In this document: positions 3,135 through 33,195 of the stretch, one piece after another
Layout: the number at the start of each line of letters is the position of its first letter
How positions within the stretch are numbered: the first letter of the stretch is position 1
NCBI GenBank assembly: GCA_025359265.1
Contig: JANYHB010000066.1
Span: 1 to 49,921 of the forward strand
Reading direction: 5' to 3'
Length of the DNA: 49,921 nucleotides
From: Hyphomicrobiales bacterium
Lineage (GTDB): Bacteria > Pseudomonadota > Alphaproteobacteria > Rhizobiales > Aestuariivirgaceae
Translations under genes and position numbers: made by a program
Notes under the pieces: model-generated
Told to the model about the DNA's origin: nothing
What the model saw: the letters and a program-made list of their open reading frames with translations, nothing else
Database searches by the model: none

Positions 3135-3142
3135 TTTGGCGC

Positions 3143-3994: not shown

Positions 3995-4061
3995 AAAAAT
4001 TCCCTGCTGCCAGTCTTGCAATCACCCTGAGGAACAGATTTATCGCACAAGACTGCACACC

Positions 4062-15363: not shown

Positions 15364-16314
15364 TCATATCGCATTTCCCTCAGGATTGAAGATATGCACA
15401 TGACTTGCATCAATCGCTATGCCGACATGTTTGCCGGGGGCCTTGGGCAATGAACTGTCGGCCTCTACGATCAGTTGACCGGCTGGCGTATCGATATACG
15501 CATAGGTCGTGTTGCCAAGCTGTTCAACTACCGCCGTCTTTCCCACAAGCAATGCCAATTTATCATCTGGGGCAAGCAGGTGCAGATGCTCCGGACGAAT
15601 GCCCGCTTCAACAGCTTTCGTTTGTGCGTTTGCCAAGGGCTTTCGAGCTGTCACATTCAAGGTGGAGTCCCCTGCCAACGAAAGGGCGAGCAGATTCCCA
15701 TTCGCCGATTTTATAGTGGCTGGCATAAAGTTCATTGCCGGTGATCCAATGAAAGCGGCAACAAAGCGATTGGCTGGGCTGTTGTAGAGTTCCAGTGGCG
15801 AACCCGAATGTGCGATGGCGCCGCGATCAAGCACAACAATTTTGTCCGTCAACGTCATCGCTTCCACCTGGTCATGGGTTACATAAATCATTGTCGTTTT
15901 CAGGGTTTGGTGCAGCTTGGCGAGCTCCAGCCGCATCTGTACGCGCAGCAATGCATCAAGGTTTGACAGAGGCTCGTCGAACAAGAACACCTGCGGCTCT
16001 CGAACCAAAGCCCGCCCGATAGCCACGCGCTGGCGTTGGCCGCCAGAAAGCTGGGCAGGCCTGCGTTCCATGAGCGCTTCGAGCTGCAACAACTTCGCAA
16101 CCTGGTCTGCTCGCTGGTTCTGCACGGATTTGGACATGCCAGCCAAAGACATGGAAAAGCAAATGTTGCCTCGCACTGTCAGGTGGAGATAGAGCGCATA
16201 GGACTGGAACACCATCGCAATGCGGCGGTTCGCCGGTGGCGTGTTTGTCACATCATTGCCATCAATCAGTATTTGGCCCGACGTCACGGGCTCAAGCCCT
16301 GCGATCATTCTAAA
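15364..16314 (-). pseudogene. Sugar ABC transporter ATP-binding protein (MalK/UgpC type), 5'-truncated
   Basis: The protein matches the CUT1-type ATPases that energise sugar and glycerol-phosphate importers. Present are the Q-loop (MVFQSYALYLHLTV), the signature LSGGQRQRVAIGRALV, Walker B VFLFDEPLSNLD, the switch His in TMIYVTHDQVEAM, and a C-terminal TOBE-like regulatory domain (EAGIRPEHLHLL). The N-terminal 40-odd residues with Walker A (GxSGxGKST) are gone: homology starts at RMIAGLEPVTSG, and a TAG lies in frame shortly before it. Without Walker A it cannot bind ATP normally. The break abuts a truncated response regulator on the same strand, so a deletion probably joined the two. No permease genes are nearby. 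Confidence 0.87.
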
Positions 16315-17695: not shown

Positions 17696-17787
17696 TTCGG
17701 CCTCCATTGGCAGGCAGCGCCCACTCAAAATGATAGCCCCGAGATAGGGTTTAGACAAGGCGCAAGGAATGACTTAAGGTAAGGTTG

Positions 17788-18534
17788 ATGGAACAGTTGC
17801 TGGCTTACAAAGCTTATGTTGTTGGCATAGCCTTTTTGGGATTGTTTTATTTTGAGCGCCACTTTCCAGCGGTGCTTGCGCCTTGGAAGCCAGTGCGCTG
17901 GGTGCGTAATCTTTCAGTGGCATTTATCAACTTTTTATTGGGGCCGCTGATGGTGTTGCCTCTGTCGGCCTATGCGGCCGCCCATGGATTAGGCTTTCGG
18001 CCGAACTGGTGGAGTATGGCCTTTGATCTTATCATCATGGATGCATGGATTTATGGTTGGCACCGCTTGAACCACGTTTTGCCACTTCTCTGGCGATTTC
18101 ATGAGGTGCATCATCTGGACGAAGCGCTTGATACCACAACGGGCTTGCGGTTTCATTTTGGTGAAGTCGTCCTCTCAGCCGTTGCGCGAGCAGTTCTTAT
18201 TTGGTTTCTCGCTATTCCGCTTGTGACCATTGCCGTTTTTGAAACTTTAATTGTGCTTGCCGCGCTGTTTCAACACTCAAATCTAAAACTGCCCGCCAAA
18301 TTTGAAATTATGCTGTCCAAGTTGGTCGTCACGCCGCGCCTGCATTGGGTGCATCACCATGCGCTGCGTGAAGACACCGATTCAAACTATGCCACCATAT
18401 TTTCAGTTTGGGATATGTTGTTCAATAGTCGCAGTCGAAACCCAAGACGCGAGGATATGGTTATCGGGGTTGAAGGAATGAATGATCTGCCGTTGGGAAA
18501 GCTCATCATGGCACCACTGCGCTTAAACCATTAA
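17788..18534 (+). CDS. Sterol desaturase / fatty acid hydroxylase family membrane protein
   Basis: This integral-membrane di-iron enzyme family hydroxylates or desaturates lipids. The protein has about four hydrophobic segments and the expected histidine clusters: HRLNH (about 92-96), HEVHH (about 105-109), and LHWVHHHALREDTDSNYA (about 188-205). The ATG at 17788 follows AAGG motifs; an in-frame TTG lies one codon before. The substrate is not determined by sequence. Its position about 1.4 kb upstream of the ceramide operon makes a sphingoid-base or fatty-acyl hydroxylase possible, but it is not in the same operon. Confidence 0.87.
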   Translation: MEQLLAYKAYVVGIAFLGLFYFERHFPAVLAPWKPVRWVRNLSVAFINFLLGPLMVLPLSAYAAAHGLGFRPNWWSMAFDLIIMDAWIYGWHRLNHVLPLLWRFHEVHHLDEALDTTTGLRFHFGEVVLSAVARAVLIWFLAIPLVTIAVFETLIVLAALFQHSNLKLPAKFEIMLSKLVVTPRLHWVHHHALREDTDSNYATIFSVWDMLFNSRSRNPRREDMVIGVEGMNDLPLGKLIMAPLRLNH

Positions 18535-18589: not shown

Positions 18590-19141
18590 ATGGCACATTT
18601 TGAGACAGATATGACCAAACTGAACGCATTAACCACAGCACTGATTGAGGCCAGGCTTACACAAGCCGCCCAGTTTGATGCGCTTTCACGCGTTCATGAT
18701 GCCAGCACGCTGCGCCTTGAGGCGCTGCGCGATAACATTATGCCAGAGCTTAACAGCACCACTCACTTGCGCGAACTGGTTGAAATAAACTTGCAGGATG
18801 GTGAAACGCCGCGCCTGTGGATTGATCTTGTCTCACATGTTGAGATGCAGCCAGACCCCAAGTCATATCGCCTCGTGCAAAGTTCAGATCGTGGACGAGA
18901 GACTGTTTTTGAGACCCGTGATTCTGAACAGATGAAGCACTATCTATTGCGCCACATTGCGCACCGCGCGATTGCATTGGAACGTGCCGTGGCCGGAAAG
19001 CCTTCAGTCGAAGCAAGGGCCGAGAAAAAATACAGCTTCGGTGAAATTGTTTATGTTTGGATCACGGGCATTGCATTTGGTGCCATAGGTTTGGTTGCTT
19101 ACGCCTTGGCCGCAGGTATATTCAAACTATCTTCGCCATAA
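18590..19141 (+). CDS. Conserved-looking protein of unknown function with C-terminal membrane anchor
   Basis: I do not recognise a family. The first 150 residues are soluble, helical and charged. A motif-like stretch ELVEINLQDGETPRLWIDLVSHVEMQPDPKS is broken here for length: the key part is RLWIDLVSHVEMQPD. One transmembrane helix lies near the C terminus (IAFGAIGLVAYALAAGIFKL), giving a tail-anchored shape. It stands alone between the hydroxylase and the ceramide operon on the same strand. The start at the ATG at 18590 lacks a clear ribosome site; the ATG seven codons further in is an alternative. Confidence 0.6.
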   Translation: MAHFETDMTKLNALTTALIEARLTQAAQFDALSRVHDASTLRLEALRDNIMPELNSTTHLRELVEINLQDGETPRLWIDLVSHVEMQPDPKSYRLVQSSDRGRETVFETRDSEQMKHYLLRHIAHRAIALERAVAGKPSVEARAEKKYSFGEIVYVWITGIAFGAIGLVAYALAAGIFKLSSP

Positions 19142-19233: not shown

Positions 19234-21009
19234 GTGAGCGGCATATTGGCACTGAACGATACGACCGAACCCAAAATGTTGGTGAAAACGCCAACTTTAA
19301 ATCAAAGTCTGCCACAGCGCATTGCGGATTTTACAACTTTGGCTGAAGGTCTGGATTATGCCGCTCAAGGTGTTACGGGCCTCAATTTTTATTCAGGCCG
19401 GGGCAGGTTGGAATATGTTTTGCCCTATACAGAATTGCGCCGCCGCGCCTTGGTTTTGGCGCGAAAGTTGTTATCCACTGGTTTGAACCGGCTGGATCGC
19501 GTGGCGATTGTGGCCGAGACCGGGCCTGACTTCATAGTCACCTTCTTTGCGTGCCAATATGCTGGGTTCGTGCCATGTCCCATTCCCTACAGCATGTATA
19601 TTGGCGGGCGCGAGGCTTATGAACAGCGCATCGCCGGGATGTTGAAGGCGGCAGATGCCCGCTGTGTAATCTCGCCTGCCGATCAAATTGAAAGCCTGCG
19701 CGTGGCCGCGGGTTCCGTGGATGTGGAAATGGTTTTCAGCCATGACGAACTTTCAACATTGCCAGAGTCGATTGCCAAGATGCGCGGTTTCGAAGGGGGG
19801 GATGTTGCTTATATTCAATATTCTTCGGGTTCAACTTCAGCACCCAAGGGTGTTCTGATTTCGCAAGGTGCAATTTCGACGAATGCGCGCGGCATGTTGG
19901 TGTTTGGCATTCACGTGAAGCCAAGCGATCGTGGTTTTTCATGGTTGCCGTGGTATCATGATATGGGGCTGGTTGGTTTTTGCCTGGCACCTTTGTTGTC
20001 GCAGTTCAGTATGGATTATCTGGCCACAACGGCCTTTGCGCGCAGGCCAAGCCTGTGGTTGAAACTGATTTCAGAAAACCGTTGTACTGTTTCATTCTCG
20101 CCCACATTTGGATATGATCTCGCTTCCAAGCGCATTGGCACAGAAGTGGAAAAGTTGGACCTTTCATGTTGGCGCGTGGCTGGGATTGGCGGCGATATGG
20201 TGCGCCCGGATGTGCTTAATGAATTTGCCAAGGCTTTGGCGGGCGCAAAATTTTCTTTTGGGGCGTTTTTGCCATGCTATGGAATGGCGGAGCATACGCT
20301 GGCCATTTCATTTCCCCCGATGGGTCGCGCACTTCGTGTGGATACCGTGGATAAAAACGGGGTGCGCAATAATCATAAGGCAATTCCAGTGGCGCCGGGA
20401 ACACCGGATTCGCGTGGCTATGCGGTTTGCGGGCGGGTTCTCGAGGGCCACGAAATGGAAGTGCGTGACGCTGAAGGTGCAATTTTAGCTGATCGCGAGA
20501 TTGGCCGCATATTTTTGCGCGGGCCGAGTTTGATGAATGGCTATTTTAAAGATGTTGATGCCACGGCCGAGGTTATTGATGCTCAAGGTTTCTTAAACAC
20601 GGGAGACATGGGGTATAGGTTGGACGGCGAAATCGTGATTACCGGCCGCGCAAAAGATTTGATTCTTCACAATGGCCGCAACATTTGGCCGCAGGATATT
20701 GAATGGGCGGCGGAAAAATATGCTGAGTTAAAATCTGGCGACGTTGCCGCCTTTGCCATTGAGGGCGATGATGGCGATGATGAGGTGGTGGTTCTGGTTG
20801 AATGCCGCACCACAGAAATTGCCGATAAGGAAAAGTTGCGCCGTGAAGTGGGCAAGCTGGTGCACCAAGGCTCTGGCGTTGATTGCAAGATTGAACTTGT
20901 GGCACCACGCAGCTTGCCCTTTACAACCTCTGGCAAGCTTTCACGCGCCGGTGCCCGCAGCAAATATCTTGCCGGTGAGATTGTGGTTTTTGCCCCGCAA
21001 AACGTTTGA
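19234..21009 (+). CDS. Fatty acyl-AMP ligase / acyl-ACP synthetase of the ceramide operon
   Basis: This 591-residue adenylating enzyme activates a fatty acid with ATP, most likely loading the small acyl carrier protein encoded downstream. The P-loop is IQYSSGSTSAPKGV (about 190-203), the FAAL-type motif is SWLPWYHDMGLVG (about 233-245), and the hinge region NTGDMGYRLDGEIVITGR precedes a C-terminal domain with a lysine in TTSGKLSR. The GTG start at 19234 has AAAGGTGA a few bases upstream. It is first in an operon with cerR, an ACP and spt, the arrangement known from Caulobacter sphingolipid synthesis. The end overlaps cerR by about 20 nt. Confidence 0.9.
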   Translation: MSGILALNDTTEPKMLVKTPTLNQSLPQRIADFTTLAEGLDYAAQGVTGLNFYSGRGRLEYVLPYTELRRRALVLARKLLSTGLNRLDRVAIVAETGPDFIVTFFACQYAGFVPCPIPYSMYIGGREAYEQRIAGMLKAADARCVISPADQIESLRVAAGSVDVEMVFSHDELSTLPESIAKMRGFEGGDVAYIQYSSGSTSAPKGVLISQGAISTNARGMLVFGIHVKPSDRGFSWLPWYHDMGLVGFCLAPLLSQFSMDYLATTAFARRPSLWLKLISENRCTVSFSPTFGYDLASKRIGTEVEKLDLSCWRVAGIGGDMVRPDVLNEFAKALAGAKFSFGAFLPCYGMAEHTLAISFPPMGRALRVDTVDKNGVRNNHKAIPVAPGTPDSRGYAVCGRVLEGHEMEVRDAEGAILADREIGRIFLRGPSLMNGYFKDVDATAEVIDAQGFLNTGDMGYRLDGEIVITGRAKDLILHNGRNIWPQDIEWAAEKYAELKSGDVAAFAIEGDDGDDEVVVLVECRTTEIADKEKLRREVGKLVHQGSGVDCKIELVAPRSLPFTTSGKLSRAGARSKYLAGEIVVFAPQNV

Positions 21010-21967
21010 TAAGTCCAAGCCCATTCGTGTGGCGCTGACAGGTGGAACCGGTTTTTCTGGCGCCTATATCTTGCCGCAGCTCATTGCGGCGGGCTATGAC
21101 GTTGTGGCGTTGGCGCGCAAGCCTGAAGTGCTGGCAGGCAAGTGCCAAAATGTGGTTGCGGGCGATCTTTCTGATGCAACGGCACTGGCAAAGCTGGTTG
21201 AACAAGCTGATGTGGTTTTGCATGTTGGGGGGGCCACCTCAGCGCAATCGAGGGAAAGTTTTTTTGACATAAATGTGGAGGGCACAAAGCGCTTGTTTCG
21301 AGCCGCCCGCCAAGCCCACGTCAGCCGGTTTGTTTATGTGTCTTCGCTTACGGCGCGTGAGCCCGACCTGTTGGATTATGGCGCCAGCAAAGCCGCAGCC
21401 GAGAAGTTTCTGCTTGATCAAGATGACGAAGATTGTGCCATTCTGATTTTGCGTCCACCAGCGGTTTATGGCCCGGGAGACCGCGCCGCGCTGCCATTGT
21501 TCAAATTGCTGCAACAGAATGTGGCCGTGGTGCCAGGCCATAAATCTTCGCGGTTTTCGCTTCTGCATGTTTCGGACTTTGCAAAAGTTGTATGCGAATC
21601 CGTTGAATATAAATCTCATGGTATTTTTGAACTGGACGACCAAACCATGGGTTACACATGGGCTGATCTGGCGGAAACTAGTACGACGCTGACGGGAAAG
21701 CCCATTCGCACTCTCTACATGCCGTATGGCCTGCTGAATGCTGCTGCGGGAGTGGCCGAGGCAATCGCCAAACTTACGGGGCATAGAGCCTTTGCGACAC
21801 GCCAAGACATTGCCAAAATCTATCATAAAGACTGGGTTGTAAATGGCTGGCTGTGGCCAATTGCACAGCCCATAAAATTGCACGAGGGCTTTGCGCAAAC
21901 ACTGGTGTGGTATCAGCAACAAGGTTGGTTGCCGCCACAAAAAGAACGGGTTAGAAGCCCGGCATGA
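20990..21967 (+). CDS. cerR: Ceramide reductase-type NAD-dependent epimerase/dehydratase (CerR)
   Basis: This is an extended short-chain dehydrogenase. The Rossmann motif is VALTGGTGFSGAYILPQL, the catalytic pair is DYGASKAAAEKF (YxxxK), and RFVYVSSL supplies the serine. In the Caulobacter pathway the matching enzyme reduces the 3-oxo group after acylation, giving dihydroceramide. The open frame extends far upstream inside the ligase gene, but homology begins near IRVALTGG, so I place the start at the TTG at 20990, with GGTGAGA upstream; a GTG at 21029 is the alternative. The stop overlaps the ACP start (ATGA). Assignment rests on family plus operon position. Confidence 0.85.
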   Translation: MPRKTFDKSKPIRVALTGGTGFSGAYILPQLIAAGYDVVALARKPEVLAGKCQNVVAGDLSDATALAKLVEQADVVLHVGGATSAQSRESFFDINVEGTKRLFRAARQAHVSRFVYVSSLTAREPDLLDYGASKAAAEKFLLDQDDEDCAILILRPPAVYGPGDRAALPLFKLLQQNVAVVPGHKSSRFSLLHVSDFAKVVCESVEYKSHGIFELDDQTMGYTWADLAETSTTLTGKPIRTLYMPYGLLNAAAGVAEAIAKLTGHRAFATRQDIAKIYHKDWVVNGWLWPIAQPIKLHEGFAQTLVWYQQQGWLPPQKERVRSPA

Positions 21968-22212
21968 TTGAAAAATCCGAAATTGTCCTTGTGCTCGTGG
22001 ATTTGCTTAAACCTTTTAACCCGGAAGCCAAGCCGCTGGTTGAAACCACTGATATTCCGGCTGAGTTAAACATTGATTCAGTGGGCGTTCTGGATTTCAT
22101 AATGGAAGTTGAAGACCATTTCGATATTGAAATTCCCATGAATTCGGTGGCCAGCATCCGCACAGTGGGCGAACTTGCAAGTTTTGTACAATCGCGTTTG
22201 AGCAAGGCTTGA
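21964..22212 (+). CDS. Dedicated acyl carrier protein for sphingolipid synthesis (AcpR type)
   Basis: This small acidic carrier of 82 residues has the phosphopantetheine attachment serine in NIDSVGVLDFIMEVED (Ser39), followed by the usual helix and HFDIEIPMN. It would carry the acyl chain made by the upstream ligase to the downstream Spt. The start overlaps the cerR stop (ATGA) and its own stop overlaps the spt start, indicating coupled translation. It differs from housekeeping AcpP, which reads DSLDTVEL at the same site. Confidence 0.92.
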   Translation: MIEKSEIVLVLVDLLKPFNPEAKPLVETTDIPAELNIDSVGVLDFIMEVEDHFDIEIPMNSVASIRTVGELASFVQSRLSKA

Positions 22213-23399
22213 TGATGGTTGACCTGCTCGACAAACACCGCAGCGTTTTAGATCGTGTGCAGCGCATGACTGCAATGGGTTTCAACGGTTTAGGTGTGAC
22301 GAATGATCAGATGATTTCGCCCACACGTGCCGTTGTTGGCAACCGTGAGATCATTCTTGCCGGCACCAACAATTATATGGGCATCACCTTTGATCCGCGG
22401 TGCATCGCGGCGGGAAAGAAGGCGCTCGATGAATTTGGCACGGGCACCACCGGTTCACGTATTGCCAATGGCTCATTTGCCATGCATGTGGAACTTGAGC
22501 GCGAACTTGCGGGTTTTTTGAAACTCCAACACTGCATTGTTTTCACCACCGGTTATCAGGCCAATTTAGGCATGCTGTCAGGTTTGGCGGGGCCTCAAGA
22601 TACAATCTTCCTCGACGCTGATTCACATTCCTCAATTTACGATGGTTGCACATTATCAGGTGCCAAATTGGTGCGCTTCCGACACAATGATGCGGCTGAT
22701 CTTGATAAACGCTTGGGGCGCGCTGGCAACGATGGTGGCGGCAAATTAGTGGTGCTGGAAGGCATCTATTCGATGTTGGGTGATCGTGCCCCGCTTGCCG
22801 ATTTTGTTGCGCTAAAAAAGCGACATCAATTCCAACTTTGCGTTGATGACGCGCACTCCTTCGGCGTGCTTGGGCCGCATGGGCGAGGGCTAGGCGATGA
22901 AGTTGGCCTGGAGAGCGAAGTTGATTTTGTGATCGGTACTTTTTCCAAGAGTATCGGTGCGATTGGTGGCTTTGGTGCCTCCAACCATCCGCTGTTTGAT
23001 ACACTGCGTTATGCCATGCGGCCCTATATGTTCACGGCCTCAGCCTCTCCTTCGTCAGTGGCCACATCAATTGCCGCATTGAAAGTGTTGCAGGAAGAGC
23101 CTGAGCGCCGCGCGCGCATTTGGGCAAATTCAGAACGCCTCTACACCGGGCTTAAGGCACTAGGGCTCGATATGGGTTGTGATACCGTGAGCCCTGTTAT
23201 TGCTGTGAAAATGCCCGATGAAGTGACCACGGTTATAAAATGGGATGCCCTGTTCAAGGCTGGCGTTTATGTGAACATGGCGGTGCCGCCAGGCACGCCC
23301 AATCGCCTTTGTTTGCTGCGCTGCTCGGTCTCAGCAGCGCATACCAATGAAGAGATTGACCGCATCATTGCTGTTTTCAAAGATGCAGTTGTGAATTAA
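22212..23399 (+). CDS. spt: Serine palmitoyltransferase
   Basis: This PLP enzyme of the alpha-oxoamine synthase family condenses serine with an acyl thioester to 3-oxo-sphinganine, the first step of sphingolipid synthesis. Signatures are FGTGTTGSRIANGSFAMHVE, the cofactor-stacking region TGYQANLG, DDAHSFGVLGPHGRG, and the Schiff-base lysine in GTFSKSIGAIGG (near 246). KBL, BioF and HemA share the fold, but the neighbouring ligase, ACP and CerR point to Spt. The ATG at 22212 overlaps the ACP stop; a second ATG follows at once. Its stop lies only 11 nt from the stop of the convergent permease gene. Confidence 0.92.
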   Translation: MMVDLLDKHRSVLDRVQRMTAMGFNGLGVTNDQMISPTRAVVGNREIILAGTNNYMGITFDPRCIAAGKKALDEFGTGTTGSRIANGSFAMHVELERELAGFLKLQHCIVFTTGYQANLGMLSGLAGPQDTIFLDADSHSSIYDGCTLSGAKLVRFRHNDAADLDKRLGRAGNDGGGKLVVLEGIYSMLGDRAPLADFVALKKRHQFQLCVDDAHSFGVLGPHGRGLGDEVGLESEVDFVIGTFSKSIGAIGGFGASNHPLFDTLRYAMRPYMFTASASPSSVATSIAALKVLQEEPERRARIWANSERLYTGLKALGLDMGCDTVSPVIAVKMPDEVTTVIKWDALFKAGVYVNMAVPPGTPNRLCLLRCSVSAAHTNEEIDRIIAVFKDAVVN

Positions 23400-23410
23400 T
23401 TTGTAAAAAT

Positions 23411-24478
23411 TTAAACATGGTCAGTTCTCGCCAACAGCCCAACTGCAATAGCTGCAAAAATTAACAGCGGCCCCCAAGCCGCAAGCCAAGGCGCAATTGC
23501 ACCCGTTTCACCCAAGGTCATTGCCACGCCGTCACCCACAAAATAGGCAAAGCCAAGGCCAACACCAGCCACGAAAATAAGACCCAGTCCGCCGCCACGC
23601 CTGAAATTGGTGCCAATCGGTACGCATAACGTCACCATTACCATCGTCACAAAAATTGGGGTTAAACGCTTGAGCCAGTAGGTTTGATAAACATAGGCCG
23701 GGCGCACGCCGAAACCGTCGTTGGTGATGTAGGTGGAAAGGTCACTTATGCTCATCTCTTCTGGGGATGGCAATTTCTTGTTGGCTAGCCGCATGGGGCC
23801 ATCATAAACGGCTTGGTCTTCGCGTTTTGGTGCAGCCCCCGATGCATAGTAAGTGGTCACATTATTCAAAAGCCAGTGGCCGTTGGACTGTAAGGCTTTT
23901 TCAGCAAAAACTTCAGCGCGCAACTGGCCCGTTGGTTCTCTTCTAAACAATATCAAATCAAACAATGTGCCGCCATCAGCTGCCGCTCGCTCAGCGCGCA
24001 TGATGTCGTTACCCACTCTTATCCAAACTGGTTCGTTCTCGGCGGTTTTAAACTTGCGCGTGGCATAGTCTCCAATGCCCCAACTGTGCAAAAGTGGTGC
24101 CGCAGCAGGCACTGCCCAGTTCATAATGGCAAATTGCAATATGCCAATGCCGAGAGCGACGGGTAAAAGTTTCAGGATAAGCCTTGTCGGCGAAATGCCG
24201 GTGGCCCAAATCGCCGTCAGTTCATTGCGATACGATAGCTCAGTTATTGCCAGCAGAAGTGACAGCAACAAACTTGTTGGCAAAAACAGCGTGAGAATTC
24301 CAGGTAGCCTTGCCAGCCCATACAGGCCCACGGCACTGAGGGCATTGGAGTTTATTTTTAGAATGTCAGTAAGAAAACCCACAACTTCCAAAGTGAGAAC
24401 AAATGCCGAAAGGCCCAGCAAGATTACGCTGAAGCGGATGAAAATCATGCGTGAGAGCATGCGAGCCACCAAACTCAT
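23411..24478 (-). CDS. LptF/LptG-family permease, single paralogue in the ceramide locus
   Basis: The 355-residue protein has the YjgP/YjgQ fold. Three N-terminal membrane helices contain ITELSYRNELTAIWATGISP, the coupling-helix region that contacts the LptB ATPase. A periplasmic beta-jellyroll (about 135-255) and three C-terminal helices follow. Canonical lptF and lptG occur as a pair for lipopolysaccharide export. A lone copy co-transcribed with a ceramide synthase suggests a role in moving sphingolipids to the outer membrane, perhaps with shared LptB. Its ATG overlaps the metallophosphoesterase stop (ATGA). The family call is firm; the substrate is inferred. Confidence 0.87.
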   Translation of the reverse strand: MSLVARMLSRMIFIRFSVILLGLSAFVLTLEVVGFLTDILKINSNALSAVGLYGLARLPGILTLFLPTSLLLSLLLAITELSYRNELTAIWATGISPTRLILKLLPVALGIGILQFAIMNWAVPAAAPLLHSWGIGDYATRKFKTAENEPVWIRVGNDIMRAERAAADGGTLFDLILFRREPTGQLRAEVFAEKALQSNGHWLLNNVTTYYASGAAPKREDQAVYDGPMRLANKKLPSPEEMSISDLSTYITNDGFGVRPAYVYQTYWLKRLTPIFVTMVMVTLCVPIGTNFRRGGGLGLIFVAGVGLGFAYFVGDGVAMTLGETGAIAPWLAAWGPLLIFAAIAVGLLARTDHV

Positions 24479-25374
24479 GCAGTTTGCTCCAAGGTGAAAG
24501 ACGTGGCCGGTTCAAAGATATTTAATTCACCGTTCCAGCGCCTGATTTTCACTTGAGTATGCCACTGACCGCCGACGCGGGTGATTTCATAGGTGTTCCA
24601 TTCAGCAGAGTTCCTAGGCGTTTGCGCCATGCTGGCCGAAGCCACACCAAGGGCCGGCACGTTCGCTCCGTCTTGCTTCAGCCAGTGCAACGCACGGCTG
24701 TGATTGTGGCCATAGATAACAAGCTCAGCCTGCTGCTGGCATAGAATGGATTGCAATTCTTCTGCATCAATCAAGTTGCGGAATTTCGTGGCGAGACCGG
24801 GGGCCGGAGGGTGGTGGAGCATCACCACACGATAAAAGCCCTTGCCACGCAGTTCTGCAAGCTTTTGCCGCAAGCGTTCGCGTTGGCCGAGGCCGAGCTG
24901 GCCTTGCGCGTTGTGGAATGGGCGCGGCAAAGCACTGTTAAGGCCAATAAGCGCCACGTTGCGGCGCAGGCGCACAAAGGGAAATGCCGCATCACTTGGC
25001 ATGTCACTGGTCATGAAGGGTTCAAAAAATTTCAGGCTTTTTTCATGGGCAACCTTGACATATACGTCATGATTGCCCGGCGTGTATGAAAGCCCGTCAG
25101 GAGTTGCCAATCGGTCTAGCCAGCGGCGTATATGAGGAAACTCTGCTGGGCTGCCAAGATTAGCGGCATCGCCCGTGAATGCCACGTGATCTGTTGCGGC
25201 GGCGCGCACGTCGTTAAGCAAGGCTTCGGCGATTTCGGGACGATATATTTTCTTGCGGCTATAATGCCATGAGATGGCACCCAATAGTCGCTTTGGCCTA
25301 AAATTCTGTAACGGCGCGCCGCGCGGCAAAGGGCCGAGGTGCAAATCTGAAAAATGAGCTAGGGTAAAAGTCAC
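24475..25374 (-). CDS. Calcineurin-like metallophosphoesterase
   Basis: All five metal-binding blocks of the family are present in order: FSDLHLG (about 8-14), FTGDAAN (about 65-71), PGNHD (about 99-103), MLHHPP (about 185-190) and YGHNHSR (about 225-231). The 299-residue protein is soluble and lacks a signal peptide. It overlaps the ceramide synthase gene upstream and the LptG-like gene downstream, so it may hydrolyse a phosphorylated sphingolipid or nucleotide-activated head-group intermediate, as LpxH does in lipid A synthesis. This link comes from operon context alone. Confidence 0.87.
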   Translation of the reverse strand: MTFTLAHFSDLHLGPLPRGAPLQNFRPKRLLGAISWHYSRKKIYRPEIAEALLNDVRAAATDHVAFTGDAANLGSPAEFPHIRRWLDRLATPDGLSYTPGNHDVYVKVAHEKSLKFFEPFMTSDMPSDAAFPFVRLRRNVALIGLNSALPRPFHNAQGQLGLGQRERLRQKLAELRGKGFYRVVMLHHPPAPGLATKFRNLIDAEELQSILCQQQAELVIYGHNHSRALHWLKQDGANVPALGVASASMAQTPRNSAEWNTYEITRVGGQWHTQVKIRRWNGELNIFEPATSFTLEQTA

Positions 25375-26507
25375 AACGTCTTTTCATAAATGCGATAGGT
25401 TTTGTAAACTCGGCTGCCCATGCTTTCCAGAATATGGCGCACCCGTGTGTTGTCTTCCAAAATCCACGAATATTCGCCATGGGTGACGCCTTGGCTGATG
25501 ACATGGTCTGACGATGCGCGGATTGCTGCAAGCGCCAAGCCCGCACCAATTGCGCCATGCTGATATTTTTTCTTAACACCCATTAAAGGCACGCGCACCG
25601 AACGCGACTTTCCACTGATTACCCGTGGTAATAGTTTGGCCCAGCCAAAAGGAAGGATTTTGCCATCCAACCCTTGGAACCACTCATTGATGTTGGCAAT
25701 TGCGAGGCAGAAGGCTGCGGGCTCGCCTTTCCAATATGCAAATTGCACGGCTTTGGCATCCAACAGCATTTTGAAATTAGTGGCCATGGCTTTGACCTCG
25801 GCTGTGGTAAAGGGCACGAAATTCCAATTGTCAGCCCACGCATCGTTGAAAATATCCATGATGATTGCAACTTCGCTGTTCATGACTTTTTTGTTTAGCG
25901 GGCGAACAGTGAGATCACCGGATGCCATCATGCGGTCTACCATCTTGCGCATGGCGGGCGGCAGGCCCTTCACATTGTCAAACTCATAGGCCAACAAATC
26001 TTTGGCCTTGTGGTAGCCCTGTTCTTCAACGCGCATTTTATAATAGGGTGCGCCATGGCCCATCATCATATTGGGAATTGTTTCAAACCCGTCGATGAGC
26101 AAGCCACTTTCATCATTGATGGAGAAAGAGAAGGGGCCCAGGGATTTTTTCATGTTTTGGCTGCGCAGCCAATCTTCGGCTGTTTTGAACAGCGCAGCAA
26201 ATATCGAAGGATCATTCTGCGCTTCCAAAAACCCGAACTGGCCAGTGGCATCTTTATATCGATCTTGATGCAGTTGATCAACTTGTGCGGAAATGCGGCC
26301 CACGGGCAATCCATCTTGCTCAGCGATGAATAATTGTGCCTTGGCGTGTTGGAAATAAGGATTTTTTTTGGTGCTCAGATGGTCAAAACGCTCCAGAAAT
26401 AATGGTGCCACCCAAGATTTATCTGCGGCATAGATTGGGAAAGGCACTCTCAGGAACGCAATCTGGTCTTGCTTGTTCAAAACCGGACGAACTGTTACTT
26501 GCGCCAT
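25371..26507 (-). CDS. cerS: Bacterial ceramide synthase (GNAT-fold N-acyltransferase)
   Basis: The protein resembles the bacterial ceramide synthases, which attach the second acyl chain to the sphingoid amine and are unrelated to eukaryotic CerS. Recognisable stretches are AFLRVPFPIYAADKSWVAPL near the start, GPFSFSINDESGLLIDGF, MGHGAPYY, and WILEDNTRVRHILESMGSRVYKTYRIYEK at the C terminus (shortened here to EDNTRVRHILESMGS), a GNAT acyl-CoA site. I chose the ATG at 26507 (MAQVTVRP) where homology begins; an ATG at 26522 is also possible. It heads the minus-strand operon with the metallophosphoesterase and permease. The Nudix gene is divergent, less than 80 nt away. With spt, cerR, the ACP and the ligase it completes the five-gene ceramide set. 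Confidence 0.85.
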   Translation of the reverse strand: MAQVTVRPVLNKQDQIAFLRVPFPIYAADKSWVAPLFLERFDHLSTKKNPYFQHAKAQLFIAEQDGLPVGRISAQVDQLHQDRYKDATGQFGFLEAQNDPSIFAALFKTAEDWLRSQNMKKSLGPFSFSINDESGLLIDGFETIPNMMMGHGAPYYKMRVEEQGYHKAKDLLAYEFDNVKGLPPAMRKMVDRMMASGDLTVRPLNKKVMNSEVAIIMDIFNDAWADNWNFVPFTTAEVKAMATNFKMLLDAKAVQFAYWKGEPAAFCLAIANINEWFQGLDGKILPFGWAKLLPRVISGKSRSVRVPLMGVKKKYQHGAIGAGLALAAIRASSDHVISQGVTHGEYSWILEDNTRVRHILESMGSRVYKTYRIYEKTL

Positions 26508-26581: not shown

Positions 26582-27043
26582 ATGAGAAAACTGCCGGATT
26601 GGTTGTTTCAGCGATATTCGCGACTTACCCGTGGCAAAACTTTGGGGGCACGGGTTTTGGTCATCGATGGCCAAGCCCGCGTGCTGTTAGTGCGGCCAAC
26701 TTATGTCAACGGCTGGACTTTGCCGGGCGGTGGCGTGGATAAGGGCGAGACTTTGCGACAAGCAGCCGTTCGTGAATTGATGGAGGAGGCGGCGGTGCGA
26801 CCGTTTGAAGACCTTGCCCTTCACGGCATGTTTTCCAATGAGGTTGCCTTCCCCGGCGATCATGTGGCGTGCTTTGTGCTGCGCAAATTCAAGCAGGAGG
26901 TCTTTAAACCTAATTTTGAAATCAGCGCGGCGGAATTCTTTTCGGTTGAAGCTTTGCCTTCTGATGTGAAACCCGGTTCACTGAGACGCATTCATGAAGT
27001 TATTTATGGCAAGCCAATCTCCGATCAATGGAGCGATGCGTGA
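26582..27043 (+). CDS. Nudix hydrolase
   Basis: The Nudix box GGGVDKGETLRQAAVRELMEEA (about 53-74; core REL-EE) is complete, so the 153-residue enzyme should hydrolyse a nucleoside diphosphate linked to another group. The substrate cannot be told from sequence. It is divergent from the ceramide synthase gene, and its stop overlaps the GTG of the following acetyltransferase (GTGA). A lipid-related role is possible but unproven. Confidence 0.87.
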   Translation: MRKLPDWLFQRYSRLTRGKTLGARVLVIDGQARVLLVRPTYVNGWTLPGGGVDKGETLRQAAVRELMEEAAVRPFEDLALHGMFSNEVAFPGDHVACFVLRKFKQEVFKPNFEISAAEFFSVEALPSDVKPGSLRRIHEVIYGKPISDQWSDA

Positions 27044-27582
27044 CGCTTTCCCTTGCCCCAACCGTTCAAACCTCAGCCCATGACAAGCAGATTGAAGCGT
27101 TGCTTGATCTGACATTCGGATTGTCGCGACGCACCAAAACATCCTATCGGTTGCGTGAGGGCAGTGCCCCGGCCGCTGGCCTATCTCTCATTATCAAAGA
27201 GGCGGAATTTGGCGTGGTGGGTGCCATCAGTTTTTGGCCTTTGCGGATTGGGGCGATCGGTAGACCGGCCCTTTTGCTTGGGCCGCTGGCCGTGCACCCG
27301 CAACGCCAGAACATCGGCATTGGGCGGGCCTTGATGCATGAGGGTATGGCACGGGCCAGTGCACTGGGACATCACCTTATCATCCTGATTGGTGATGCGT
27401 CTTATTATGGGCGGGTGGGGTTTCGACAAGTTCCAGAAGGGCAGCTGGAAGTGCCAGGGCCTGTTGATCCCAAGCGCTTGCTTTACCTTGAATTGCAAGT
27501 TGCGGCTTTGGCTGCAGCGCAAGGGTTGGTTTTGGCAGATTGGCGATGGCAGGAAATTAACGCCCTTCGCGCCGCCACATAA
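27040..27582 (+). CDS. GNAT-family N-acetyltransferase
   Basis: This is a GCN5-type acetyltransferase of about 180 residues resembling YhbS. The acetyl-CoA binding segment is LLLGPLAVHPQRQNIGIGRA (core Q-x-x-G-I-G), followed by GDASYYGRVGFRQVP, a signature of this subgroup. I chose the GTG at 27040 because it overlaps the Nudix stop and has GGAG upstream; an in-frame ATG at 27028 lacks a ribosome site. The last 26 nt overlap the end of the convergent membrane-protein gene. Confidence 0.84.
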   Translation: MTLSLAPTVQTSAHDKQIEALLDLTFGLSRRTKTSYRLREGSAPAAGLSLIIKEAEFGVVGAISFWPLRIGAIGRPALLLGPLAVHPQRQNIGIGRALMHEGMARASALGHHLIILIGDASYYGRVGFRQVPEGQLEVPGPVDPKRLLYLELQVAALAAAQGLVLADWRWQEINALRAAT

Positions 27583-29617
27583 GCCCGGCAGCCAGCAATA
27601 AAGCAGCCAGAGCGAATAAACTGGATGACAGCGCCCATTCATGAACCGCTATGGTGCGGAATTGATTGTTGGCATGTAAATTCAGCCAGCCTGCACCAGC
27701 GAAGGCGGCATTGGCCGATTGTTTTGAGATGGAGGGCAAGCCCTCTTCGGCCCAAAATACCCCGCCACCGGTGGCTTTGGTTGCCGGCTCGACCTTTTTT
27801 GTGGTTGCAACGAGATCGCTGAATTCCTGCATATCACCGCTTCCGGTGGTGACGATTGTTTCCAAGGTGCCATCGCGCAGCACATAAAGGCCTTGTTCTT
27901 GCGGATGCAAATGCCCTTGAAAATGTCCGGGCCCGATTTTCGACAACGAGAGTTTGGTTGGTGTTCCGCTGGGGGACACGGCATCTAGGCTGGCGTAATC
28001 GTCCCGCAGACCAAAGCGATCAACGATAATGTCGGTTCCGGATTGATGGGCCGTGAGGCGATCTTCCTCAAGCTCCGGTTCTTTCATCAACCAGTGGGCC
28101 ATCCGCTTTTGTAAATCTGCTTCTGGCCCGCCACCGTCAAAGCCGCGGGCCCAAAGCCAGCCTTGATCTGACAGTATTTGCGCCACGCGGCCTAACTCAA
28201 CGTGTCGAAGCACAAGCAAGGGCTTGCCATTGGGCCCTTCCAATAACACTTGGGTTGAGGCATCTGGACTTACCGTTGCATCAATGAGGCGAAACCATTT
28301 GCCCCAGGCAGGTTCCGTGCGGCTGCCACCCTTTAAACTTTGGGTGACGGGATGGCGTTCTCCCACTTCCGATAGTTTGGGTTTGAACGGCGTTTCGGTT
28401 ATATCACCGGTGGGCAAGGCGGGAAGAATATCGGCCATTGGTGAGGATGCAAGACCATCAGCTTGTGCATAATCCGGCCCGGATGCAACCAACAACGCGC
28501 CGCCCTTGCGCACATAATCCGCGATGTTGGCGATATATTCGTCGGGCAAAATAACTTCACGTTGATAGCGATCAAAAATAACCAGATCAAATTGATCGAG
28601 TTTATCAACAAACAATTCCTTGGTTGGAAACGCAATGAGCGAAAGTTCATTCAATGGTGTGCCGTCTTGCTTTTCAGGTGGACGCAGAATGGTGAAATGG
28701 ATGAGATCTACAGCCGTGTCAGCCTTCAGCAAGTTGCGCCAGGTTCGTTCTCCTGCGTTAGGCTGGCCGGAAACCAATAAAACACGCAGGCGGTCTCTAA
28801 TACCTTCAATGGTTGCAATGCTGATATTGTTGGAAGGTGTGAGTTCTCCCGCGCGCACTGCGGCTTTGAGGGCCACATAATTTTTGCCAGCATGGCTTAT
28901 CGGCACCTCAACTTCCGCTGAGGCACCGGGCTTTACGGTTAGATGCAGCGCTTCCTGGCCCGCTTGTTCAATGGTCAAGGGAACATCTGCGCCATCTCCG
29001 CCTTGATCTTCTACGTGGAAACCGATCTTGGCCGACTTGCCAACCAGCGTGAATTCTGGCGAATGATCAATGACCAATCGGCGATCACTGTCAGTTTTGC
29101 TGCCGGTGATGATGGCGTGAAGTGGCCCGTGCAATGCCGCCAGTTCATTGGGTTTGGGCGCATCATGAACTTGGCCATCAGTAAGCATAATGGCGCCAGC
29201 GTAGCGACTTTGGGGAATGTCGCTGACGGCACGCGCGAGTGCGGCAAAGGCTCTTGTGCCGCCTGCGGTGCCTAGGGCGTCTGACGTTACGGTGGTGATG
29301 CGCAGTTCAGTATTCTGCATGGTTGACAAGATTTTTTGCAGGGCGGCAGCGGCTCCATCGGTTTGCTGTTGGCGATTTCCGATACTTTGGCTTGCAGTAC
29401 GGTCGATCACCAGCACGGCAATGTCACTTAGCTTTTCAGTTTCGTCCAGATGGATTACGGGGTTGGCAAGAGCGAGCACAAGCAACGTTCCAACGGCTAA
29501 GCGCAAAAGCGCTCCGCGCAGACCTTTGTACAATGAATAGGCGATGAGGCCAGCGACCGAAACCGCGAAAAGCAAGAGCAGAGGCCAGATAATCATGGGC
29601 GCAAAGGTCACGTTCAT
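27557..29617 (-). CDS. Membrane protein with VWA-like and glutamine-amidotransferase-like domains
   Basis: This 686-residue protein is the last gene of the MoxR operon. Two helices at the N terminus (about 8-50) are followed by a von Willebrand A-like region (IAVLVIDRTASQSIG and IMLTDGQVHD; the classical DxSxS reads DRTAS). A class I amidotransferase-like domain with RVLLVSGQPNAGERTWR and GGALLVASGP lacks an evident catalytic triad. One helix lies at the C terminus (LSSSLFALAALLLAAGLMW). MoxR/VWA systems act as chaperone-like envelope or cofactor-assembly machines; the client here is unknown. The start overlaps the upstream gene by 4 nt. The 3' end overlaps the convergent GNAT gene. Confidence 0.78.
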   Translation of the reverse strand: MNVTFAPMIIWPLLLLFAVSVAGLIAYSLYKGLRGALLRLAVGTLLVLALANPVIHLDETEKLSDIAVLVIDRTASQSIGNRQQQTDGAAAALQKILSTMQNTELRITTVTSDALGTAGGTRAFAALARAVSDIPQSRYAGAIMLTDGQVHDAPKPNELAALHGPLHAIITGSKTDSDRRLVIDHSPEFTLVGKSAKIGFHVEDQGGDGADVPLTIEQAGQEALHLTVKPGASAEVEVPISHAGKNYVALKAAVRAGELTPSNNISIATIEGIRDRLRVLLVSGQPNAGERTWRNLLKADTAVDLIHFTILRPPEKQDGTPLNELSLIAFPTKELFVDKLDQFDLVIFDRYQREVILPDEYIANIADYVRKGGALLVASGPDYAQADGLASSPMADILPALPTGDITETPFKPKLSEVGERHPVTQSLKGGSRTEPAWGKWFRLIDATVSPDASTQVLLEGPNGKPLLVLRHVELGRVAQILSDQGWLWARGFDGGGPEADLQKRMAHWLMKEPELEEDRLTAHQSGTDIIVDRFGLRDDYASLDAVSPSGTPTKLSLSKIGPGHFQGHLHPQEQGLYVLRDGTLETIVTTGSGDMQEFSDLVATTKKVEPATKATGGGVFWAEEGLPSISKQSANAAFAGAGWLNLHANNQFRTIAVHEWALSSSLFALAALLLAAGLMWRREGR

Positions 29618-32331
29618 TGGGTGCCCAGGCGCTTTAGAATATCTGGCACATGCACTTGATCAGTTTTGTAATTCCCCGTCAGCACATACATCACCACATT
29701 AACGCCCACGCGCAAAGCCAACTCGCGCTGGCGCGGACTATCGGGAATCAACGCATAGAGTGGCTGCCCGTCAGGATTCATCGCCCAAGCGGCGGCAAAA
29801 TCATTGGATCCGATAATCACCCCAGAAACATTGTCAAATCCAGATGATTGCGGATTATCTTGCGCCTCTACCCATAGCGGCCCACCTTCGTAACGCCCGG
29901 GAAAGTCTTTCAATAAATAAAAGCTTTTGGATAGCGCATGTTCAGGTGGCACAGGTTCCAGCGGCGTCACATCCAGTTTGGAGGTGATGCGGCGCAATGC
30001 TTCACCTTGTGCACCGGCGCCAAGCGTTGATGATGGATCGCGCAAATCAAAGAAGATCGTTCCGCCGTTTTTCATGTAAGTTGCGATGCGTTCGAGGGCT
30101 TTGGCATTGGGCGCTTCGGCATCCTCAGTCACTGGCCAATAAATGAGCGGATAGAAAACGAGCTCATCGTTTTCGATATCCAATCCCTGCGGATCACCTA
30201 AGCTGGCCGCCGTGCGATCAGCAATTACTTCGCCTAATCCTTTGAGGCCTTGCTCGCTTTCCTGATCAATTTCTGCATTGCCCGTTTTAACATAAGCAAT
30301 ATGGGTTTGAAGTGTTGCCGCCATGGCTTGCTCATCGGTTGCAGCCCGCGCGCGCTCAAAACTTGGTTGTACAAAAATAAACGCAAAGGCAACGGCTAAC
30401 ACTGCGCTGCGCCGCTGCAAGTGACCACCCATGAAAAGGGCCGCCAAGCAATCAAGCAAGAAGAGCAAAGCGGCGCAAATAAACAGCGGTTTGGCAAAAT
30501 CAATAAAGTCGGCTGGTTTAATTTCAGATAGGCCAAGGCTTCCTGGCATGGGCGCCAAATCTTTAGCTTCGATTTTTAAATTGACGGCCCGTGTCTGCGT
30601 GCCCCGCAAATACAGGCCAGCGGGCGTTGCAGCGGTTGCGGTTGCTGACGTGATCGCTTTTGCGCCAATGCTTTTGACATTGCGCCACGGGTTTACCAGT
30701 TCACCGCCACCATTTAGCAGCAACTGCGGCGCAAAATCACCTTCAACAGCAGTGCTGGCATTTGTTGCGGAAGGATTTCCTGCTGCAGGTGCCAGCTCAG
30801 CAAGGCGTTGCATGATTTGCGCAAAGGTTCCCGTGAGCGGCAAATTAGACCAATCGGCATTGGCAGTTACGTGGAAAAGCACAATGCGGCCCGCGCCATG
30901 TTTAGCGCTGGTGATAAGTGGTGTACCATCGGCCAGGCTTGCCCAGGTTTTGGCGGAAAGTTCAACGTCAGGCTCGGCCAGAAGCTGGCGGGTGACTGTG
31001 GCTTCTGCATCCACCGCAATGCCTGCAAGTGGACCCTCGGGTTCAAAAGGTTTGATGGTCTGCGGCGTTTCCCAACTCAGAGAAGAACCCAAATTACGAT
31101 CCCCCTCGCGAAGTTTCACGGGCAGAAGATCATCGCCACCAGCTGCCAGGTGCGGGCCGGAAAAGCGCACCAGCAACCCGCCTTTGCCAACCCACATTTC
31201 AACTGCATCATGCTCTTCCTGAGACAGGCTGCCGACATCGGAAAGAATGAGCATCGAAAGACCGGCTTCCAATGCCGCCTTCAGATCAGCACTGTTTTCA
31301 GGCTTTGAGATTTCGGCAATTTGATTCAGGGCCGAAGTGACATAGTGCATCGGTGACAGCAAAGGTTGATTGCTACTATCAGCGGCCCCGCTCATCACGG
31401 CAATGGTTTTGCGCCGCCATGTGTCATCCAGCAGAGTTTTGGCACCTGAATGGTTTTCACCCTTTATGATTAGCGCCTGTAACGTGCCACGCAGTTCAAC
31501 GGGCACCGGCAGGCGCACTTGCGTTGCGCCAGCCGATCTGATTTCGACTTTGCTTTCGGCCAACACATGGCCATCGCCTGCCAGCGCTTGCACTATCGTT
31601 GATTGCTGTCGGGCTTGGTTGGCCAACACATCAACAACAATATCGCCACTGGCCAGTGCTGGCTTGCCAACGGCCAAGGGTGACTGAACTTCGGCGGGTG
31701 TGAAAATTTGTAAGGGCGCGATTTGAGAAAGTGCATCGGCAAACGATTTTGCGGTATTGGCATCCAAACCATCAGCCAGCCAGGCAATTTGATTTGGCGC
31801 TGGCGAAAGAGATTTGATGGTTGCAAGGGCTTTCATTCGGTCAGTCGGCAAGGCCATTGGCGCCAAAGCACGCAAATGTTTTTCGGCATCTGTGGCATTC
31901 TCGGGCTGCAAAGCCTGCGGGTCTGCCGTGCCTGTTACATAAATCACTGCACCACTTGCTTCTGCGATGAGGCCGAAGGCTGCTTCTTGCCGTTTGCGCC
32001 AGTCCTTTGCGGCCGCCCAGCCATCATCAATGATGAGTAACATGGGGCCATTTTTGCCGCTCAGATTCTGTGCGTGTTGTTGAGACGGATGTGCAACAGC
32101 CAGGATCAACAAAGCCGCAAGCGCAAGACGCAACAGCAACAACCACCAAGGCATCTTGTCTGCCGTCGATTCCTTTTCGCGCAATTTCATGAGAATGCGC
32201 AGAGGCGGGAATGCAATTTCCTGCGGGCGTGGCGGGATGGAACGCAGCAACCACCAGATGACGGGCAAGGCCAGCAAAGCCCACAGCGCCAGAGGAGTTG
32301 CGAATGCCAGTGTGCTGATGAAACCGCTCAC
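29614..32331 (-). CDS. BatA-like N-terminal / DUF4159 C-terminal membrane protein
   Basis: This 905-residue protein starts with the BatA-type double-helix segment (ALWALLALPVIWWLLRSIPP and FPPLRILMKL). A long periplasmic or lumen-type region with VWA- and amidotransferase-like parts follows. Further membrane helices near 630-680 (PLFICAALLFLLDCLAALF) precede the C-terminal DUF4159 domain (HIAYVKTGNAEIDQESEQGL, NGGTIFFDLRDP). It overlaps the DUF58 gene upstream and the next membrane protein downstream by 4 nt each, so the operon is tightly coupled. The architecture is standard for alphaproteobacterial MoxR operons. No molecular function is established. Confidence 0.85.
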   Translation of the reverse strand: MSGFISTLAFATPLALWALLALPVIWWLLRSIPPRPQEIAFPPLRILMKLREKESTADKMPWWLLLLRLALAALLILAVAHPSQQHAQNLSGKNGPMLLIIDDGWAAAKDWRKRQEAAFGLIAEASGAVIYVTGTADPQALQPENATDAEKHLRALAPMALPTDRMKALATIKSLSPAPNQIAWLADGLDANTAKSFADALSQIAPLQIFTPAEVQSPLAVGKPALASGDIVVDVLANQARQQSTIVQALAGDGHVLAESKVEIRSAGATQVRLPVPVELRGTLQALIIKGENHSGAKTLLDDTWRRKTIAVMSGAADSSNQPLLSPMHYVTSALNQIAEISKPENSADLKAALEAGLSMLILSDVGSLSQEEHDAVEMWVGKGGLLVRFSGPHLAAGGDDLLPVKLREGDRNLGSSLSWETPQTIKPFEPEGPLAGIAVDAEATVTRQLLAEPDVELSAKTWASLADGTPLITSAKHGAGRIVLFHVTANADWSNLPLTGTFAQIMQRLAELAPAAGNPSATNASTAVEGDFAPQLLLNGGGELVNPWRNVKSIGAKAITSATATAATPAGLYLRGTQTRAVNLKIEAKDLAPMPGSLGLSEIKPADFIDFAKPLFICAALLFLLDCLAALFMGGHLQRRSAVLAVAFAFIFVQPSFERARAATDEQAMAATLQTHIAYVKTGNAEIDQESEQGLKGLGEVIADRTAASLGDPQGLDIENDELVFYPLIYWPVTEDAEAPNAKALERIATYMKNGGTIFFDLRDPSSTLGAGAQGEALRRITSKLDVTPLEPVPPEHALSKSFYLLKDFPGRYEGGPLWVEAQDNPQSSGFDNVSGVIIGSNDFAAAWAMNPDGQPLYALIPDSPRQRELALRVGVNVVMYVLTGNYKTDQVHVPDILKRLGTQ

Positions 32332-33194: not shown

Positions 33195-33195
33195 C

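Follow-up and report, generated by a model that had tools for sequence, protein, structure and literature searches.

A permease of the LptF/LptG type encoded among ceramide genes raises the question of which lipid it moves, and whether it works beside a lipopolysaccharide (LPS) export system or in place of one. We addressed it in a window of 49,921 nucleotides (the whole stretch of DNA analysed here; assembly GCA_025359265.1, contig JANYHB010000066.1, positions 1 to 49,921), in which five ceramide genes, an LptG-type permease and a metallophosphoesterase (MPE) form two tightly coupled convergent operons. The source genome (2.65 Mb in 73 contigs, 99.94% completeness) belongs to an Aestuariivirga-like member of the Hyphomicrobiales, congeneric with Aestuariivirga litoralis (G004). 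We consider it likely, with a probability of about 0.72, that the locus serves sphingolipid synthesis and export in a bacterium without LPS, where the Lpt bridge would carry sphingolipids in place of LPS. The observations behind this reading are the gene content of the locus, the fact that LpxC and LpxB were not found, the group into which LptG falls in its tree, and a pepA-lptD site without the lptF-lptG pair.

The two operons end 11 nt apart, as counted between the stop codons of Spt and LptG. Here profile matches and geometry agree with the original prediction, which had described five ceramide gene types in two convergent coupled operons. The genes of the alphaproteobacterial ceramide cluster (aasR, cerR, acpR, spt and cerS) are all present, cerS being recognized by synteny and homologues only, and the minus operon has the order cerS-MPE-lptG. 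Overlaps of 4 nt join LptG to MPE, MPE to CerS, CerR to AcpR and AcpR to Spt, and AasR and CerR overlap by 20 nt, given a CerR start at TTG 20990. Permease and phosphoesterase had each been predicted to run 4 nt into CerS; MPE does so, but LptG overlaps MPE instead.

Comparisons were made with 40 genomes of the family, 199 genomes of the order and 262 loci overall, with sets of 20 family loci around LptG and 41 loci with spt, some of which are incomplete at their edges. Genome searches found neither LpxC nor LpxB in the window genome and, judged on these two only, its lipid A pathway genes are absent. No LpxC over the cut-off was found in any of the 40 family genomes, where one weak fragment of 20.6 bits was seen in G009; Spt was detected at E ≤ 1e-90 in 38 of them (the exceptions being G009 and G038), and the LptG query at E ≤ 1e-3 in 39, strongly in 38, weakly in G009 and not at all in G028. 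The searches do work, since LpxC was found in 167 of the 199 order genomes; for 12 LpxC-negative genomes of that sample the status was deduced from their absence among the matches. The cultured type strain of A. litoralis likewise gave no LpxC or LpxB match, and it has an LptF-LptG pair within its sphingolipid cluster and, in addition, a single solo LptF-like gene.

In the order sample, the window LptG has 25 relatives, itself included, with 36-100% identity at E ≤ 1e-70, beyond which the matches drop to 1e-29 and 29% identity. Of the 25 genomes with this sphingolipid-type LptG, 22 are LpxC-negative, versus 10 of the 174 without it (Fisher p 1e-18, in a test that ignores kinship within families). 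The three genomes that combine LpxC with window-type LptG all belong to one family, f7. Spt was found at E ≤ 1e-110 in 22 of the 25, the other three being only 71-86% complete. LpxB was missing from all 19 LpxC-negative genomes with sphingolipid-type LptG that were tested, and was present in 10 of 15 other tested genomes (missed in G045, G226, G147, G089 and G104) and in 10 of 11 genomes with strong LpxC, the miss being G045. Where LpxC and a sphingolipid cluster coexist, two LptF/LptG pairs were found in all seven genomes with both loci retrieved. In family f34, genomes G072, G113, G177 and G204 have a pair between pepA and lptD plus an lptF-lptG-cerS pair in the sphingolipid cluster, and G147 (no LpxC, no LpxB) and G226 (a weaker LpxC match only, no LpxB) have their sole pair by spt, which probably reflects an independent LPS loss that ended the same way. 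The former four genomes also have two LpxC matches apiece.

Two PF03739 proteins are encoded in the window genome, the LptG of the window (23411-24478, minus strand; 189.8 bits, gathering score 27.9) and an LptF on contig 39, and a profile search of the genome identified the former as its only LptG, which rules out a spare copy next to a complete LPS system. The original prediction had proposed a dedicated sphingolipid permease; the LptG phylogeny and the missing lipid A genes speak for it, but the permease is no second copy accompanying an LPS system. An only LptG with LptF elsewhere had even been named as the state that would speak against such a role. This is formally what the genome has, and the sphingolipid reading nevertheless survives because LpxC and LpxB were not found. 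On its profile scores the permease is LptG-like and outside the curated LPS LptG: it does not reach TIGR04408, the NCBIfam LptG equivalog (199.2 vs 240 bits), nor the NCBIfam LptF model (76.7 vs 230 bits). Its Glu86 aligns with the coupling-helix glutamate E88 described for E. coli LptG (PMC5082905) and is invariant in 21 of 21 LptG rows; a glutamate at the corresponding place of LptF is invariant in 22 LptF rows.

In the LptG tree (67 rows, a quick search, unrooted, some branches long), a single branch with an SH-aLRT of 100 parts 54 sphingolipid-cluster rows from 13 pepA/lptD-locus rows, and the window LptG groups with the former, beside those of G031 and G017. The label "sphingolipid" was given by neighbours, not by the tree, to rows whose fetched locus has an Spt, CerS, MPE or DAGK homologue; open reading frames (ORFs) longer than 385 aa, or 460 aa in the LptF tree, were trimmed to their C-terminal part, and LptG-like matches at L214 and L218, with neither ceramide genes nor lptD nearby, were omitted. 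The LptGs of the f34 and f43 clusters share only 23-27% identity with that of the window.

The usual site of the LPS permease genes gives the same picture. All 13 pepA/lptD loci retrieved have pepA next to lptF-lptG-lptD, and 12 of them have surA, pdxA or ksgA homologues 3′ of lptD as far as the stretches reach (surA was undetected in L261 and L262, and L206 stops at lptD). LpxC was found in the genomes of all ten loci covered by the LpxC search, the other three loci being from G272, G264 and G265; as these loci were picked for containing LptFG, it is their neighbours that carry the information. In the window genome, pepA is separated by ~140 nt from lptD-surA-pdxA-ksgA, and the lptF-lptG pair is missing there. 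The retained LptD (contig 22, 172.6 bits) has a mean identity of 29.2% to the 13 LPS-locus LptDs (n=13, range 27-33), as compared with 35.6% among the latter across families (70 pairs, range 28-50, so that the ranges overlap), and PepA is not more distant in the same comparison (55.3 vs 53.8%). An ordinary housekeeping LptG for LPS, with ceramide neighbours by chance, might be suspected in a gene that is the sole LptG of its genome and has LPS-type LptG as its nearest solved structures, but we consider it very unlikely and mostly refuted: LpxC and LpxB were not found, the pepA-lptD site is without the pair, and LptG lies across a fully supported branch from the LPS-locus rows.

The company kept by the permease bears on its cargo. 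The family loci around LptG have a same-strand MPE homologue in 20 of 20 cases, no more than 559 nt upstream of lptG or lptF-lptG, so that the arrangement is not due to chance, and MPE is present in 32 of the 41 spt loci. MPE is on the strand of lptF/lptG in 39 of the 40 loci with both seen, L258 being the exception. Sphingolipid-type LptG adjoins MPE, LptF or CerS across families and in other orders of the class, which, together with its tracking of Spt in the genomes counted above and its separation from LPS-locus LptG in the tree, makes it unlikely that the Lpt machine exports some other envelope lipid or glycolipid, with sphingolipids using another route (e.g. AsmA-like or Mla-like bridges) and the spt clustering reflecting envelope co-regulation. 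What favours such an alternative is the LptF of contig 39, which adjoins genes for a GT2 glycosyltransferase and a DUF6492 protein, not ceramide genes.

This LptF, here called LptF′, deserves attention of its own. The permease had been called lone, and indeed the window has it without LptF; this is nonetheless a derived state, in which the cluster appears to have lost its LptF, as LptF lies beside LptG in 16 of the 20 family loci and is missing in G031, G017, G034, G039 and the window. Where a Caulobacter-type cluster holds both LptF and LptG, the window holds LptG only. In all five of these genomes a divergent LptF′ is found elsewhere, 43-73% identical to that of the window genome, which itself has 24-27% identity to cluster LptFs. 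The LptF tree, likewise a quick search, unites LptF′ in one clade (support 100) on the sphingolipid side (85-94) and the LPS-locus rows in one group (98); the sphingolipid-cluster rows need four changes, being broken up by solo copies and LptF′. The extra PF03739 genes of LPS-less genomes were retrieved for G004, G017, G053, G074 and G075, and not for G115, G149, G116 and G150. In three LpxC-negative genomes the sphingolipid pair is accompanied by a third LptF/LptG-like pair that is very divergent (G075:C8:56609-58889, G116:C38:22089-24415 and G150:C484:8-2094). In G034, LptF′ and a cluster-type LptF stand in tandem (L089 9184-11687), as if in an intermediate between the old and the new partner of LptG. 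The absence of LptF from the cluster of the window and of 4 of the 20 family loci could also mean that LptG is a remnant heading for loss, its partner gone. This is very unlikely, as the ORF is full-length, its coupling-helix residues are invariant, the 4-nt coupling is retained, and LptF′ is kept in all five of these genomes.

Turning to the ceramide genes, AasR (19234-21009, plus strand), a fatty acyl-AMP/ACP ligase of the FAAL type, scores 749.7 bits with NF006624 (cut-off 600) and is 54-77% identical among family clusters. CerR, an epimerase-type ceramide reductase (20990-21967, plus strand), matches PF01370 with 102.3 bits as scanned from 20996, and TTG 20990 is its likely start. It has no hydrophobic N-terminal segment; Caulobacter CerR is reported as periplasmic (PMC11087976). 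The specialised acyl carrier protein AcpR (21964-22212, plus strand; PF00550) has a homologue in 41 of 41 spt loci, and serine palmitoyltransferase Spt (22209-23399, plus strand) scores 570.2 bits with NF047599, over a curated cut-off of 500. The GNAT-like ceramide synthase (bCerS/CerS; 25371-26507, minus strand, ATG at 26507) has no Pfam or NCBIfam match; its name comes from homologues at the same position by spt in relatives (38 of 41 spt loci), and not from comparison with the Caulobacter protein. NUDIX hydrolase and GNAT genes adjoin cerS (window 26582-27582), and each occurs near the cluster in 14 of 41 spt loci. In G037, cerS is broken into two ORFs (L070 13862-15184), and in G019 there is a stop within spt (G019:C155:5507-6682); either could be assembly error or decay.

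MPE (24475-25374, minus strand) is a calcineurin-like dimetal phosphoesterase (PF00149, 41.4 bits, cut-off 21.5), whose metal-binding positions D10, H12, D69, N101, H187/H188, H223 and H225 are invariant in 21 of 21 sequences. It probably acts in the cytosol, because no TM-like segment was found in it. The nearest folds to its model (pLDDT 90.9) are Lmo2642, GpdQ, Rv0805 and the SMPDL3/acid sphingomyelinase group. We did not adopt an LpxH-like assignment, as E. coli LpxH came only 47th in the fold search, with Lmo2642, GpdQ, Rv0805 and sphingomyelinase-like proteins ahead of it.

The plus operon contains the genes given in the original prediction, but probably starts upstream of aasR with two more. 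The first (17785-18534, plus strand; Pfam 91.9 bits) encodes a PF04116 fatty-acid hydroxylase, possibly acting on ceramide or the sphingoid base, and the second (18590-19141, plus strand) a conserved 183-aa protein; upstream of aasR, the hydroxylase is found in 8 and the 183-aa protein, directly adjacent, in 23 of the 41 spt loci. The 183-aa window protein has no Pfam or NCBIfam match (weak NCBIfam matches, E 0.004-0.005, were seen in 1 of 24 members) and no PDB profile match at E 0.1; its model (pLDDT 90.1), with a long helix, a small beta domain and a single C-terminal TM helix, has no Foldseek PDB match at E 0.001. LptC is an N-anchored beta-jellyroll, and we did not take up the 183-aa protein as an LptC2, its model architecture being unlike LptC and a PDB match lacking.

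Relatives keep further genes between or beside the two operons, coding for a ceramide-kinase-like DAGK in 35, a CDP-alcohol transferase in 26 and NTP-transferases in 27 and 22 of the 41 spt loci. The window has no match to relatives' references for the ceramide-kinase-like protein, the CDP-alcohol transferase, the two NTP-transferases or P069, in keeping with the predicted absence of head-group genes. An MsbA-type ABC exporter lies directly upstream of cerS in 31 of the 69 loci with room for it; in the window the ABC flippase reference matches only the ATPase part of an unrelated MalK-type gene (15364-16308). Of 52 loci, 28 have at least 3 kb visible upstream and, the window excluded, 14 of these have only the hydroxylase, 8 only the CDP-alcohol transferase, 5 neither and 1 both, although such loci are phylogenetically clustered. 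Since the hydroxylase tracks the absence of the CDP-alcohol transferase, window-type clusters may make a different head group, perhaps a glycosyl one. Elsewhere in the window, adjacent LigD and Ku genes (708-4021) form a standard bacterial end-joining pair, and a BatA/DUF4159 protein has a MoxR-type AAA ATPase close by (29614-34176).

From this arrangement we infer the substrate, the direction of transport, the pairing of LptG with LptF′, the head group and the enzyme activities as follows. The ligase, AcpR, Spt, CerS and CerR would yield dihydroceramide, perhaps hydroxylated, to which a head group would be attached via genes beyond the window; MPE would most likely act on the cytosolic side, stripping a sphingolipid or head-group intermediate of a phosphate or nucleotide. 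After a flip across the inner membrane, the sphingolipid would be extracted by an ABC exporter of the LptB2 type, with the window LptG and LptF′ as its membrane halves, and would pass along the retained Lpt bridge to LptD and the outer leaflet, replacing LPS.

The LptF′ loci invite a more speculative extension. In 5 of 5, the GT2 and DUF6492 genes are divergently transcribed, with an ABC exporter in 3 of 5, and no further locus with the two genes was found at E 1e-20 among the 262 loci compared (L002 is the same place as L086). It is conceivable, if rather doubtful, that the clade of the window has a hybrid exporter, in which sphingolipid LptG was kept with cerS, LptF was swapped for LptF′ (which travels with GT2, DUF6492 and, in 3 of 5, the MsbA-type ABC exporter), the phosphoglycerate head-group genes went out and the hydroxylase came in. 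If so, the exchange of one half of an Lpt exporter would have gone hand in hand with a change of head group on the lipid that it carries, the LPS-less surface would consist of glycosylated, hydroxylated sphingolipid, and LptF may hold head-group specificity.

Several points weigh against sphingolipid export in place of LPS. The permease misses the NCBIfam LptG equivalog cut-off; the pepA-lptD site without the pair comes from one LPS-less genome; both trees are quick searches; the placement of LptF′ is moderately supported, with long branches; and its low identity to cluster LptFs, together with its separate contig, makes its pairing with LptG a guess. Members of one family are not independent data points, a fact ignored by Fisher's test, and the window is without the genes for head group and flippase that lie within the cluster in many relatives. 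Finally, loss of LPS is not always accompanied by sphingolipids and other routes exist, as nine LpxC-negative order genomes have neither Spt nor sphingolipid-type LptG. In family f51, G089, G125, G158, G186 and G210 have no LpxC, Spt (E ≤ 1e-110) or LptG (E ≤ 1e-8) matches, and no PF03739 was found in G089, the only f51 genome so checked; these genomes are apparently without LPS and without a sphingolipid-type export system.

With the E. coli LptB2FGC-LptA-LptDE exporter, the window genome has in common the permease family, the coupling-helix glutamate and LptD; unlike E. coli, it has no sign of LPS, and its membrane halves are encoded apart. Sphingomonads such as Sphingomonas and Zymomonas have sphingolipids and are not known to make LPS, as proposed for the window host. 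In PMC11324152, S. koreensis is named as LPS-less, and S. wittichii and Z. mobilis are reported to have scattered orthologues of the LptF2/LptG2 cluster genes; in the window, from another order (Hyphomicrobiales), such genes are clustered.

The original prediction had taken the system to be underdescribed, but sphingolipid LptF2/LptG2 have already been proposed for Caulobacter: according to PMC11324152, which gives cofitness values and did not test transport, CC_1168, CC_1156 and CC_1155 are LptC2, LptF2 and LptG2. The region CC_1152-CC_1168 of C. crescentus described there shares with the window the five ceramide genes, with an identical order of aasR, cerR, acpR and spt, and likewise has LptG by cerS or its neighbour and a phosphoesterase, with CC_1157 or CC_1158 as candidate counterparts of MPE. 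Compared with it, the window lacks LptF and the ceramide-kinase-like, CDP-alcohol transferase, nucleotidyltransferase and flippase genes, and has the fatty-acid hydroxylase. Caulobacter has LPS (PMC11324152) and, as implied by the term "second versions" used there, LPS-type Lpt permeases; in the window genome neither LpxC/LpxB nor a second LptG was found. The CPG2 enzymes are treated in PMC12275187, and PMC11087976 (2024) refers to the sphingolipid transporter as not yet identified. Among the matches listed from the open-licence literature, which leaves most subscription journals and preprints outside, none dealt with the loss of LPS or with sphingolipids in Aestuariivirga, and the single-exporter arrangement in LPS-less Hyphomicrobiales was not found in print. 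What appears to be new here is the LPS-less single-exporter setting and the proposed swap of LptF; the use of LptFG for sphingolipids was already proposed.

Overall, sequence comparison reveals a conserved Lpt system linked to sphingolipids, in a lineage where neither LpxC nor LpxB could be detected, and the position of the sole LptG inside the sphingolipid cluster suggests that sphingolipids replaced LPS on the surface by way of the same export machine. The sphingolipid route to the outer membrane was left open by both PMC11087976 and PMC11324152 of 2024, and in A. litoralis the carriage of sphingolipids by Lpt permeases could be examined without an LPS background. Genomes with LPS only, with both lipids and with sphingolipids only carry matching permease pairs and offer a natural comparison. 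The case also illustrates a possible path to LPS loss, in which the bridge is handed to another lipid.

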